This document shows, in pieces, positions 14,926 through 22,246 of a DNA stretch of 64,000 nt (its first letter is position 1; every line of letters begins with the position of its first letter). The notes below the pieces were generated by a model. The model made no database searches, had not been told where the DNA came from, and saw only the letters and a list, made by a program, of their open reading frames with translations. A program made the position numbers and the translations under genes. Source of the stretch: Sorangium aterium. Lineage in GTDB: Bacteria > Myxococcota_A > Polyangia > Polyangiales > Polyangiaceae. The stretch is from NCBI RefSeq assembly GCF_028368935.1, contig NZ_JAQNDK010000003.1:1488001-1552000 (forward strand), in the 5' to 3' direction.

Positions 14926-15369
14926 ATGAGCTCGACCTCGCAGCACGATCTCGATGAAGCACCCGAGGAGAGGCCGCCGGAGCCGGAGACCCGACCGCCG
15001 TGGCTCCGACGTCTCGCGCCGGCGCTCCTCCTCCTGGGTGCGCTTTATGCGGGGAGCATCCTCTTCAAGCGGCTGCCCGAGGAGCGGGAGGTCGAGCTGC
15101 GGCTCGATGACGCAGCGACGGTCGTGCGGCTCGACGTGACGTGGACGGATTCTTCTTCGGGCGACCGCGCGGACGACGCCGCGCCGGTCATCGACAGCTC
15201 ATGGCGGTTCGCCGAGGGGACGGCCCCACGGGCTGTCTTCACGAAGGTGTCGCTCCCGGACGGCCTCTACCAGGTGGAGATCACGGTCAGCAGGAAGGGC
15301 GAGCACGACGTGACGAGCCGGGCCGTCACGCTCGCGGACGAGTCCCGGATCACGCTGTTCGTACACTGA
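14926..15369 (+). CDS. Single-pass membrane protein of unknown function
   Basis: 147 residues: an acidic, Pro-rich cytoplasmic N-terminus (1-28), one transmembrane helix at about 31-47 (APALLLLGALYAGSILF), and a C-terminal beta-rich domain of about 95 residues with alternating hydrophobic strands (VEITVSRKGEHDVTSRAVTL), like an Ig-type or periplasmic adhesion fold. No family recognised. It lies 6 bp behind the cytochrome gene, hinting at a shared envelope or redox role, and is followed at once by a hairpin. Confidence 0.75.
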   Translation: MSSTSQHDLDEAPEERPPEPETRPPWLRRLAPALLLLGALYAGSILFKRLPEEREVELRLDDAATVVRLDVTWTDSSSGDRADDAAPVIDSSWRFAEGTAPRAVFTKVSLPDGLYQVEITVSRKGEHDVTSRAVTLADESRITLFVH

Positions 15370-15876
15370 ACGGCGCCCCGCGCGCTCCCGCCGGCCTCGC
15401 GGAGCGCGCTTCGACCGGCGCTCCTGGAGCGAGCCCAACAGCGTCCAGATGCGCCGGAGACCTGCTGCCGCTCATTGCGGTCGCCCGGCGCACGAGACCG
15501 TTGACGCCCGGAAACCGACAAGCAAGGCAGCGCCCTGAGTTGGAGGCGTGTCTCTGAGGTACCACCTCGCGTCCAGCAAGCCGCACGCAGTCCTTGATGA
15601 AAAACCTTCGTCCTTAAGCACAAGACTTTGTTATTCTTGATGTTTTACTGCTTCCAGTGACAGCGTTTCGGGTGGGAATGGAATGTGAGAACGAATTCCC
15701 TTGATGCGTTCCCCCCGAAACCGCTACTTCTTGGCCCGCGGAAGCAGAGCGTGGCACCTTATCCTACAACCACTTACACGCTCTGACTGGGACGACCGTG
15801 GTGCATCGTGGTGCCCCCCCGGAGGGAGCGACCATGCGGCCTGTACAGTGCCGCTGGAGGCGGAGAAGGAGAACCG
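15370..15876. other. Intergenic region of 507 bp with AT-rich island
   Basis: After a hairpin at 15380-15409, the segment at about 15590-15700 is markedly A/T-rich (runs such as aaaaacc, ttgttattcttgatgtttta) against a very GC-rich background. This suggests a promoter or regulatory region for the small membrane gene at 15877 and the RelA-like gene after it. I found no hexamer pair good enough to call and no RNA structure that I recognise. Confidence 0.5.
15380..15409 (+). terminator. Stem-loop terminator candidate
   Basis: Perfect 9-bp stem GCGCGCTCC / GGAGCGCGC with a 12-nt loop, beginning 10 bp after the membrane-protein stop codon. Confidence 0.5.
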
Positions 15877-16056
15877 ATGAGGATCACCCCGTGGTATCTG
15901 GCTGCGCTCGCCCCGTTCGCCGCCATTGGTTGCAGTGGCGCCTATCTCGGCCACGCCGCCGTTGTCGCATTGACGATCGGCATCTTCCTCGGGACCCTCT
16001 CGCTCGGCCGCACCCCGAGCTCGAGCCCCGCCCCGCCGAACGCCCCTGTCTCCTGA
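15877..16056 (+). CDS. 59-residue membrane peptide
   Basis: A short ORF behind a purine-rich ribosome binding site (GGAGAAGGAGAACCG-ATG). The peptide has two hydrophobic segments, about 5-19 and 25-43 (ending FLGTLSLG), and a short Ser/Pro tail, so it should insert as a hairpin or be a small lipoprotein-like peptide (a Cys follows the first segment in AAIGC). No family is recognised. It lies 93 bp upstream of the divergent RelA/SpoT-like gene on the same strand and downstream of the AT-rich island, so it may be co-transcribed with it. Confidence 0.55.
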   Translation: MRITPWYLAALAPFAAIGCSGAYLGHAAVVALTIGIFLGTLSLGRTPSSSPAPPNAPVS

Positions 16057-16149
16057 CTTTCTCGCCCAGCTACCGCCTGCTGCACCTCGACGCGAGGGTT
16101 TCCCGAGCGCACGACAGCGCTGGCGCTTACGCTCGGGGAGCGTGAGGTC

Positions 16150-17241
16150 ATGACGCAAGACGCCTCCGTCGGCCGGCTCAAGCGGCTCGAAGAGTTCACG
16201 CTCATGGACCTGGAGTCCGTGCACCTCATCCTGCGCGGCGACTCGGTCATCGACTGGAGGCGGCTCAACCTGCAAGGCGAGCAGGCGGCGCGGGACCTCT
16301 TGCTGGCGCAGGAGTTCCGCCCGGACGAGCCGGGGGATCGCGCCCACCTCGAGAGCGTCAAGAACGAAGCGATCGCGTACCTGCGCCGCCATTTCGAGTT
16401 CCCGATCCCGAGCCCTGTCGCTCGCGCCTCGGTCGAGGAGATCCTGCTGCTCGCCTCGGGCAAGGGCCACCGCCAGCTCTGCGCCTGCACGATCCTCAAG
16501 GCGATGCACATCATCCATCACCTGGCCGGGCGCGAGCTCCTTTTCTCGATCCCCATGTCGGACCAGGACGTCTTCCACCTCGTCGAGGAGAAGGTGTACC
16601 GGGTGATCGGCGGCATGCTCGCGGCGGGCTTCCCGATCACCGAGTTCATCGGCGGGCGCAAGAACAAGGACTCGCTCTACACGAAGCTCTTGTCGAAGAC
16701 CGACACGACGGCGGCGGCCATCTACGACAAGCTCCGCTTCCGCATCGTCTGCCGCACCGTGGACGACCTGCTGCCGGTGCTCCTGTACCTGTCCGAGCGG
16801 CTGTTTCCGTTCAATTACGTCGTGCCTGGCGAGAGCACCAACACGATCCTGCGGTTCCGGAGCTACTGCGAGACGCGGCCCTTCCTTCTGCCGATGCTCG
16901 ACGCGTTGCAGACCGACGTCGACGACGGACTCACGGCAGGCGACAACAGCTTCAGCGATCGGAGCTACCGCGTGATCCACTTCGTCGTCGATCTGCCGGT
17001 GCGACTCCCCGCCGAGATCCTCGACATGGCGCCGCCCGCGGCCTGGGCGCTCGGGCCGATCATCTTCGTGCTGTGCGAGTTCCAGCTGATCGACCGAGAG
17101 ACCGAGGCGGCGAACGAGGTCGGCGAGGCGAGCCACGCCAGGTACAAGGAACGGCAGAAGCAGGCCGTCATGCGCAGGCTCAAGCTGGGGGTCCGCTCCA
17201 CCCGTGACCCGGCGAGCGGCGGACCCAAGCGAGAGCGCTAG
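16150..17241 (+). CDS. Divergent RelA/SpoT-like nucleotidyltransferase-fold protein
   Basis: 363 residues without signal peptide or membrane segment. The middle and C-terminal parts align by eye with a (p)ppGpp synthetase domain: GGRKNKDSLYTKLLSK resembles the R-x-K-S-x-K stretch, IYDKLRFRIVCRTVDDL the DIxGxRI(I/V)xxxxDD strand, SYRVIHFVVDLPV the NGYxSxH motif, and CEFQLID...EASHARYK the VEIQIRT...A...H..YK end. The catalytic Asp, Glu and Gln positions are kept; the Asn-Gly of NGYxSxH and the Arg-Thr of QIRT are lost. No hydrolase, TGS or ACT domain is present. I believe related hypothetical proteins occur in other Deltaproteobacteria. It may be an altered or inactive alarmone-type enzyme; this is inference from motif spacing. 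Confidence 0.6.
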   Translation: MTQDASVGRLKRLEEFTLMDLESVHLILRGDSVIDWRRLNLQGEQAARDLLLAQEFRPDEPGDRAHLESVKNEAIAYLRRHFEFPIPSPVARASVEEILLLASGKGHRQLCACTILKAMHIIHHLAGRELLFSIPMSDQDVFHLVEEKVYRVIGGMLAAGFPITEFIGGRKNKDSLYTKLLSKTDTTAAAIYDKLRFRIVCRTVDDLLPVLLYLSERLFPFNYVVPGESTNTILRFRSYCETRPFLLPMLDALQTDVDDGLTAGDNSFSDRSYRVIHFVVDLPVRLPAEILDMAPPAAWALGPIIFVLCEFQLIDRETEAANEVGEASHARYKERQKQAVMRRLKLGVRSTRDPASGGPKRER

Positions 17242-17625: not shown

Positions 17626-18387
17626 TCAGATGCGGCCCTTCAGCGCGTCGCGATCGAGGACGACGATCCGGCGGCGATCGATCTCGATCACCCCCTTGCG
17701 ACGGAGATCGCCCAGGGTGAGCGTGACGGTCTCGCGCGTGGAGCCGATCATGCTCGCCATCTCCTGATGGGTGAACGGCGCGGAGATGAGCACCCCGCGC
17801 GGATCGGGGATGCCCCAGCGCGTCGCGGCCTTGAGCAGGAACTCACAGAGGCGGGCCTCCACGTTGCGGAAGAGCATGGACGCCAGGCGCTCCTCGGTGT
17901 CCGTGTGCCGCTCGACCAGCGTGGTCACGATGGCGGCGGCGAAGTTGGCGTCGCTCGCCATCAGGTTGCGCACCGTCGCGAGCGGGACGAGGAGCGCCTC
18001 GACGTCCTCCGTGGCGATCGCGCTCTCCCGGTGGGCCGTGACGCCCCCGAGCGCAGCCTCGCCCAGCACGTCGCCGGCCCCTCTGTAGCCGAGCGATAGG
18101 CTGCGCCCGTCGCTCATCCCACGTACCAGCCGGACTCGGCCGAGGCTGAGCATGGCGAGCGCGGTCGCGGCGTCGCCCTGCGTCACGAGGTGACGCCCTT
18201 TCGCGACGCGTTGAATCGTCCCTCCGTCCGCCAGCGCCGACTGCGTGGCCGGGGAGGCCGCGTTGCCGATCGCGCCGCGCCGGACAACCCGCCGCTTGCG
18301 GGAGTCCAGGTCGAGTCCACCGTCGTTCCCGAGCGCGCCAGGCTGGACCCTGACGCTCCGTGCCATCGCATCCTTACCCATCATCAT
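17626..18387 (-). CDS. Crp/Fnr-family transcription regulator
   Basis: 253 residues from the first of three consecutive ATGs (18387, 18384, 18381); the frame extends to 18558 but that part looks non-coding. An N-terminal cyclic-nucleotide-binding-type beta roll (VTQGDAATALAMLSLGRVRLVRG, LGYRGAGDVLGEAAL) is followed by a long dimer helix and a C-terminal helix-turn-helix (THQEMASMIGSTRETVTLTLGDLRRKG). The residues after GE in the phosphate-binding cassette are AALGG rather than the RxxS seen in cAMP-binding Crp, and no FNR-type cysteine cluster is visible, so the ligand is unknown. It is divergent from the DUF507 gene. Confidence 0.85.
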   Translation of the reverse strand: MMMGKDAMARSVRVQPGALGNDGGLDLDSRKRRVVRRGAIGNAASPATQSALADGGTIQRVAKGRHLVTQGDAATALAMLSLGRVRLVRGMSDGRSLSLGYRGAGDVLGEAALGGVTAHRESAIATEDVEALLVPLATVRNLMASDANFAAAIVTTLVERHTDTEERLASMLFRNVEARLCEFLLKAATRWGIPDPRGVLISAPFTHQEMASMIGSTRETVTLTLGDLRRKGVIEIDRRRIVVLDRDALKGRI

Positions 18388-18487
18388 CGCGGCTGCTCCT
18401 GCGGTTTGCGGTGTCGCGGTCCTACTGTTCCGGGGGGCCCCCACCGGCCGGGGGGGGCCCGACTTGTGCCGGAACCTCCCACTTGCG

Positions 18488-18517
18488 TTGACATCCTGGA
18501 TACGCGGCCCGTACCTT
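18488..18517 (+). promoter_or_regulatory. Possible sigma-70 promoter for the DUF507-like gene
   Basis: A perfect -35 TTGACA (18488-18493), 18-bp spacer and a weak -10 TACCTT (18512-18517), about 80 bp before the start at 18600. It lies between the divergent Crp/Fnr gene and the DUF507-like gene, where a promoter is expected. Confidence 0.4.
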
Positions 18518-18599
18518 TCGGTTCGAGCCGGGCACGCCCCGTGAATGAACCCCTGCACGGGGGAGCCAGTTCGACCGCTCCTCCAGCTACGGACGTTGG

Positions 18600-21607: not shown

Positions 21608-22246
21608 ATGTCGACCGAAGCACTCAGTGACGACTTCCTCCTCCTCATCGTGTCGTCCCCGTCCGGCGCGGGGAAGACGACGCTCTGCGGGAGGCTGCGC
21701 AGCGAGTTCCCCGATCTGCGCTTCTCGGTCTCCCACACGACCCGGCGCCCGCGCCCGAACGAGGTCGACGGCCGGGAGTACCACTTCGTCGACCCGAACA
21801 CGTTCGAGCAGATGATCCGCATCGGCGCATTCGCCGAGTGGGCCAGGGTGCACGATCACCTCTACGGCACGAGCCTGAAGGAGATCGAGATCGCCCGCGC
21901 CACCGCGCGCGGCGTGCTGTTCGATATCGACCACCAGGGCGCGCGCCAGATCAAGGCGAGCCTGCCCGAGGCGGTCGCCGTGTTCATCCTTCCCCCGTCG
22001 CTCGCCGAGCTCGAGCGGCGCCTGCGCGGGCGCGGGACCGAGGACGAGCCCACGACGCTCCGCCGCCTCCGCAATGCGAAGGGCGAGGTCGAGCATTACG
22101 GCTTCTTCGATTACGTCATCGTGAACGACGAGATCAACCGCGCCTACGAGCAGCTGCGGTCGCTCGTCTTCGCCGAGCGGTGCCGCCGCCAGCGGCGCGC
22201 GGCCCTCTGCGAGCGGCTGCTCTCCGAGCGGAGGTTCGAGCGATGA
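21608..22246 (+). CDS. gmk: Guanylate kinase
   Basis: 212 residues. P-loop SSPSGAGKTT at 16-25, GMP-binding VSHTTRRPRPNEVDGREYHF, and the lid FDIDHQGARQIK; the EHYGFFDYVIVND segment is typical of Gmk. It converts GMP to GDP. It sits directly after yicC and its stop overlaps the mtnP start by 4 bp (ATGA), so nucleotide salvage genes are coupled. Confidence 0.96.
   Translation: MSTEALSDDFLLLIVSSPSGAGKTTLCGRLRSEFPDLRFSVSHTTRRPRPNEVDGREYHFVDPNTFEQMIRIGAFAEWARVHDHLYGTSLKEIEIARATARGVLFDIDHQGARQIKASLPEAVAVFILPPSLAELERRLRGRGTEDEPTTLRRLRNAKGEVEHYGFFDYVIVNDEINRAYEQLRSLVFAERCRRQRRAALCERLLSERRFER

Follow-up and report, generated by a model that had tools for sequence, protein, structure and literature searches.

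Is the protein encoded at positions 16150–17241 of this stretch of Sorangium aterium DNA a working enzyme of the RelA/SpoT type, or is it a relative of the (p)ppGpp synthetases that has kept their fold and lost their chemistry? Starvation starts multicellular development in myxobacteria, and (p)ppGpp is a known trigger. An initial annotation described the product as a divergent RelA/SpoT-like protein with a partly lost active site, and suggested that it is either an alarmone-binding pseudoenzyme or a synthetase with another product. Here we examine the gene, its family and its surroundings. Nucleotide positions are those of the window, the whole 64,000-nucleotide stretch that was analysed, and residue numbers are those of the encoded 363-residue protein.

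The gene is an ATG-start open reading frame on the forward strand, and a GAGG can be seen by eye just 5' of the ATG. Measured against nine relatives, its dN/dS is 0.05–0.20, which marks a genuine gene whose protein is maintained by purifying selection. NCBIfam places the protein in TIGR04552 as a full-length member (358.1 bits against a cut-off of 125, spanning 2–350 of the 352 profile positions). The sister model TIGR04562 matches almost equally well (349 bits, cut-off 140). Both models bear just the name 'TIGR04552 family protein', which assigns no function, and both are matched by all of the 77 members that we aligned. The best-matching named relatives are from Sorangium cellulosum and Sorangium sp., with 94–97% protein identity. 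The family is known by name already, and going by sequence and fold the protein works like a RelA/SpoT synthetase, as a variant of this established enzyme type. In the open-licence literature no experimental study of TIGR04552 or TIGR04562 was found, and the main text of the 2011 RSH classification names neither Myxococcus nor Sorangium (PMC3153485).

Within its 13.5 Mb host genome the TIGR04552 gene is single-copy. It is not the genome's only synthetase gene, since a full Rel with HD, synthetase, TGS, RIS and ACT domains is encoded about 110 kb away (L187:5274-7448). The family was found in 168 of the 282 phylum genomes examined and was missing from the other 114. By hand count it occurs in all 22 genomes of the same family (own genome included), all 21 of the rest of the order, 13 of 15 of the class and 112 of 224 beyond. 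Of 77 genomes examined, 74 had a RelA_SpoT match above the cut-off, and none of 14 named control genomes carries TIGR04552. The phylum search that was seeded by a Bdellovibrio-labelled genome gave matches in 117 of 146 genomes, with strong matches in many large genomes, and carries no inference on Bdellovibrionota. L078, a contig whose title names a Klebsiella pneumoniae MAG, also holds a TIGR04552 gene; this is probably a mislabelled or mixed bin. Three loci (L183, L184 and L185) encode another divergent RelA/SpoT-like protein of 458, 450 and 429 residues, with the segment RTFEVQVQPLSNFLH and weak PF04607 matches.

The assignment to the RelA/SpoT fold was first suggested by four ordered segments, GGRKNKDSLYTKLL, IYDKLRFRIVCRTVDD, SYRVIH and CEFQLID...SHARYK. 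All four are present, and they exceed chance because PF04607 (RelA_SpoT) matches residues 171–336 in order with an E-value of 1.7e-5 (25.5 bits; gathering score 27). In a search of the genome the same frame scored 23.4 bits, or 28.5 bits with in-frame neighbours, against that cut-off of 27. Across the family, 73 of the 77 members match PF04607 at E ≤ 0.1. When the single protein was searched against PDB sequences with phmmer there was no match at E ≤ 10; the family profile found RelSeq (1vj7) as its best match, with an E-value of 0.002. Profile-profile alignment of TIGR04552 with the synthetase domains of 15 myxobacterial Rel proteins gave a probability of 93.5 over 129 columns, at 29% identity.

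The predicted structure agrees. The AlphaFold2 model of the 363-residue protein has a pLDDT of 93 and a pTM of 0.90, and its top Foldseek matches in the PDB are RelP and RelQ (E 4e-6). VIA-align superposes residues 134–335 on RelQ with bound pppGpp at Z 11.6 (rmsd 3.5, 148 aligned). Most other Rel and small-synthetase structures score a Z of about 10, CapRel 6.3, Tas1 6.0 and DNA polymerases at most 6.0. In a library of viral structures the matches were phage RelA/SpoT-type proteins (best E 9.6e-4), none of them a closer match. Comparison of the prediction with RelP and RelQ thus returned no different fold, and on the evidence of the model a RelA/SpoT synthetase domain at residues 134–339 (16549–17166, forward strand) is confirmed.

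This domain is preceded by another. Residues 10–133 (16177–16548, forward strand) form a helical N-terminal domain in the AlphaFold2 model. The initial annotation had seen no hydrolase or regulatory domain, which holds at the level of Pfam, where the 363-residue protein matches PF04607 alone and no HD, TGS or ACT domain; the helical domain of about 130 residues had been missed. Residues 10–137 predicted alone reach a pLDDT of 84, and G30, S32, D35 and C113 are invariant in the family alignment. Foldseek found no match to the domain in the PDB at E ≤ 0.001, and the best VIA-align Z was 3.5 among 110 chains aligned of only the 112 chains ranked top by Foldseek. A decayed HD hydrolase was considered for the domain and was not adopted, as these comparisons matched no known fold; HD is still a possible origin. 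In the distant members L088, L091, L092 and L096 the residues W36, R128, E129 and R196 change jointly, and from these joint changes in a few sequences the domain may face the donor pocket, beside R198. Profile-profile alignment also places an insertion of some 35 residues before the G-loop, at about residues 230–265.

How much of the active site is left? The register between the family and RelSeq was fixed in profile alignments by the pairs K171/K243, S175/S247, D193/D264 and E310/E323, and residues were counted in the alignment of 77 members. The donor-phosphate residues (16660–16698; roles after the accessible text of PMC5794853) are K171 in 75 members, S175 in 74, K179 in all 77 and K183 in 72, with Arg in the other five. 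D193, the Mg ligand corresponding to RelSeq D264, and R198, the second adenine-stacking arginine corresponding to R269, are each kept in 75 (16726–16743; roles of the equivalents after the accessible text of PMC7983052). The acceptor-base stacking position, Y273 (16966–16968; RelSeq Y308), is Tyr in 70 members and Phe in seven. At 17077–17094 lie E310, a Mg ligand equivalent to RelSeq E323 (76/77), Q312 (75/77) and D315 (77/77). The motif H329..Y332-K333 (17134–17148), which is the canonical H..YK, has its His in 75, its Tyr in 75 and its Lys in 76. All of these positions are read on the forward strand.

The Asp, Glu and Gln that had been listed as retained are indeed kept throughout most of the family, and the active site is less damaged than had been supposed. 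The complete catalytic set (K, S, K, D, R, Tyr/Phe, E and H..YK) is present in 74 of the 77 members, and core-complete members reach down to 25% identity to the window protein, with four distant ones at 25–28%. The exceptions are L060, which has Ala for S175, and two Bdellovibrio-type members (L080:4395-5435 and L081:4776-5816) with the changes K171E, S175D, D193E, R198N, H329Q and Y332Q. From their substitutions, these two are likely pseudoenzymes. Since they are still recognisable as members without the core, the family has, or once had, some role that needs no catalysis.

The informative change is, by alignment, the absence of the arginine that helps to sandwich the adenine of the donor. 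In this register G169 (16654–16656, forward strand) stands in place of RelSeq R241, RelP R78 and FaRel2 R64. The segment that the initial annotation had read as R-K-x-S-x-K exists, but its arginine (R170) is one residue off the Arg of the canonical R-x-K-x-x-x-S, whose place is taken by G169. The position is Gly in 56 members, Ser in 11, Asn in four, another residue in six and Arg in none. In comparison it is Arg in 15 of 15 Rel sequences and in nine of nine short or CapRel-like synthetases from the same phylum; these 24 proteins were picked with motif filters, so the contrast, strong as it is, comes from a sample that is not blind. A sandwich of the adenine by two arginines is thus not seen in the sequence register, where R198 is kept in 75 of 77 members and its partner in none.

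Two further motifs have changed as well. Asp315 stands in for the Thr of IRT in all 77 members, and none has Arg at the Arg position of that motif. Gly occupies the glycine position of NGY in only three, and the guanine loop has kept neither its N and G nor, further on in NGYxSxH, the S. The replacement of NG and RT, which had been noticed at the outset, is therefore correct as an observation. The loss of NG is weak evidence on activity because the genome's own Rel reads PKPNMYQSLH, with Met at the Gly position of NGY, and we rejected it as a sign of inactivity. Eight of the nine short or CapRel-like phylum synthetases are without the N of NG, and all nine keep the G. NMY for NGY was also seen in the canonical Rel of L002, L143, L147, L148 and L154.

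From the fold, the conserved core, the lost arginine and the purifying selection we infer an activity, its substrates, a product and a role. The TIGR04552 protein, in the reading that we favour and to which we would give about an even chance, is an active, Mg-dependent pyrophosphotransferase of RelA/SpoT fold with a remodelled donor pocket. K171, S175, K179 and K183 would hold the triphosphate of the donor and D193 together with E310 the Mg ion. Y273 would stack against the acceptor base, and the pyrophosphate would be transferred to the 3'-OH of that acceptor. The donor-base pocket would have been rebuilt on one side, where the first adenine arginine has given way to Gly, Ser or Asn in almost every member; the second, R198, stays. 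The helical N-terminal domain and the family-specific residues N266, R285 and D315 probably complete or regulate this pocket. The pyrophosphate most likely goes to a purine nucleotide, which would yield a regulatory nucleotide beside that of the canonical Rel. That the chemistry is retained is argued from the Mg ligands, phosphate lysines and base-stacking Tyr, which are kept at 25% identity. With a rebuilt donor-base pocket the substrate specificity is probably altered; judged by the alignment, the loss of the arginine could also mean that the use of ATP has been lost. Weighing against this reading are further the replaced N, G and S of the guanine-loop motif, the Bdellovibrio-type members that are recognisable without the core, and the 114 phylum genomes that do without the gene. 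A synthetase with another product, the second suggestion of the initial annotation, is accordingly a live option. It is possible, if rather doubtful, that pyrophosphate is placed on an acceptor other than GDP or GTP, or is taken from a donor other than ATP, to give a signal nucleotide or a mark on RNA ends that runs parallel to ppGpp; the Bdellovibrio members would then be an offshoot of pseudoenzymes.

Do the neighbouring genes point to a substrate? Immediately upstream is a gene for a 59-residue hydrophobic peptide (15877–16056, forward strand). Relatives of the peptide occur at 53 of 78 loci, and it has no Pfam or NCBIfam match. The membrane peptide first described here is thus real as a hydrophobic peptide. 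The AT-rich leader is real as well (15600–15660, forward strand; 36% GC against 70.8% for the window), but it lies 5' of the peptide gene, about 490 bases before the TIGR04552 gene, and is perhaps a promoter region. Rfam gave no match at E ≤ 1 over 15300–16200. Among 98 loci the same-strand neighbours, in conserved order, include DUF507 (at least 55), guanylate kinase (at least 53), a small hydrophobic peptide (51) and YicC (42); the first two counts are lower bounds because some loci end short of 6 kb downstream. An Ffh-like gene, named by eye, is nearby on the opposite strand in 14 of 33 loci compared. The neighbours with known domains are of housekeeping or regulatory types, and no recognised antitoxin is among them. 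The TIGR04552 gene points the other way in L041 and L046, where its neighbours are otherwise conserved, and in other lineages (L066-L081 and L121-L134) the guanylate kinase neighbourhood is not shared. In the window the guanylate kinase gene is at 21608–22246. Next downstream of TIGR04552 comes a gene for a Crp-family regulator in the opposite orientation (17626–18558), and with this gene intervening co-transcription with guanylate kinase is unlikely there. A guanylate kinase operon was for these reasons (the inversions, the Crp-family gene and the lineages with no guanylate kinase gene nearby) not accepted as proof of a link to GDP.

An ordinary small (p)ppGpp synthetase, which would join ATP with GDP or GTP and depart from the type in superficial changes plus an extra N-terminal domain, seems unlikely to us. 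RelQ and RelP are the closest structures, the Mg ligands, phosphate lysines, second adenine arginine and base-stacking Tyr/Phe are all kept, and guanylate kinase is nearby in at least 53 of the 98 loci. Yet the first adenine arginine is present in 0 of 77 members against 24 of the 24 comparison synthetases, which argues against an unchanged ATP/GTP enzyme. In addition, the N and G of the G-loop are altered, a canonical Rel is already in the genome, and the guanylate kinase neighbourhood is restricted to part of the phylum, with the gene inverted in two loci. As the pocket-defining arginine was tested and is missing, we do not file the protein as a (p)ppGpp synthetase.

The same loss in 77 of 77 members would suit a non-catalytic sensor of nucleotides or alarmones, the first option of the initial annotation, and the two Bdellovibrio-type members, which have lost K171, S175, D193, R198, H329 and Y332, indicate that the scaffold survives without the core. 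For the window protein, however, we now regard a pseudoenzyme as distinctly unlikely. In 74 of 77 members, including the four at 25–28% identity, neither a Mg ligand nor a phosphate-binding residue is missing, and sensing has no need of both carboxylates; the idea fits the Bdellovibrio members instead. A pyrophosphokinase that modifies RNA, as the toxSAS do with tRNA, but in a housekeeping role, might be proposed from the YicC-type endoribonuclease gene that is a frequent neighbour (42/98 loci) and from the extra helical domain before the core, which recalls FaRel2, whose additional N-terminal helices anchor tRNA near the G-loop (accessible text of PMC11782079), but it is improbable for a single-copy gene that, unlike a toxin, is conserved through whole lineages with no recognised antitoxin neighbour, and whose product scores a VIA-align Z of 6.3 with CapRel and 6.0 with Tas1, well under the 11.6 with RelQ.

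If the protein is an active pyrophosphotransferase, myxobacteria would have a conserved second enzyme of synthetase type whose donor pocket differs, and with it a candidate source of one more signal for starvation or growth; the family would also offer a testable prediction on how the RelA/SpoT fold holds ATP. Six Bdellovibrio lines were evolved in one study, and in one of them a small indel in a TIGR04552 gene reached high frequency; since better survival of starvation was seen in all six, a causal link to the indel is not established (PMC9888234).

Among known systems, RelP (SAS2) and RelQ (SAS1) share the most with TIGR04552: the synthetase fold (Z about 10–11.6), the phosphate lysines, the Ser, the Mg ligands, the second adenine arginine and the base-stacking Tyr. 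They differ in that TIGR04552 has replaced the first adenine arginine, the G of the G-loop and the RT of IRT, and has added the helical N-terminal domain of about 130 residues and the insertion before the G-loop. Set against the small alarmone synthetases as a class, which have a lone synthetase domain and no HD, the sequence points both ways: the window protein gave no HD match, but it has this extra domain, for which no known fold was matched. The synthetase domain is homologous to that of the long Rel, RelA and SpoT proteins, whereas the HD, TGS, RIS and ACT domains that the same Pfam search finds in the genome's own Rel are absent. With the toxSAS (CapRel, FaRel2 and Tas1) TIGR04552 shares a divergent synthetase fold and, going by the accessible description of FaRel2, extra N-terminal helices. 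It differs from them in lower structural similarity, in having no recognised antitoxin neighbour, and in the loss of the donor arginine that the CapRel-like proteins compared here keep.
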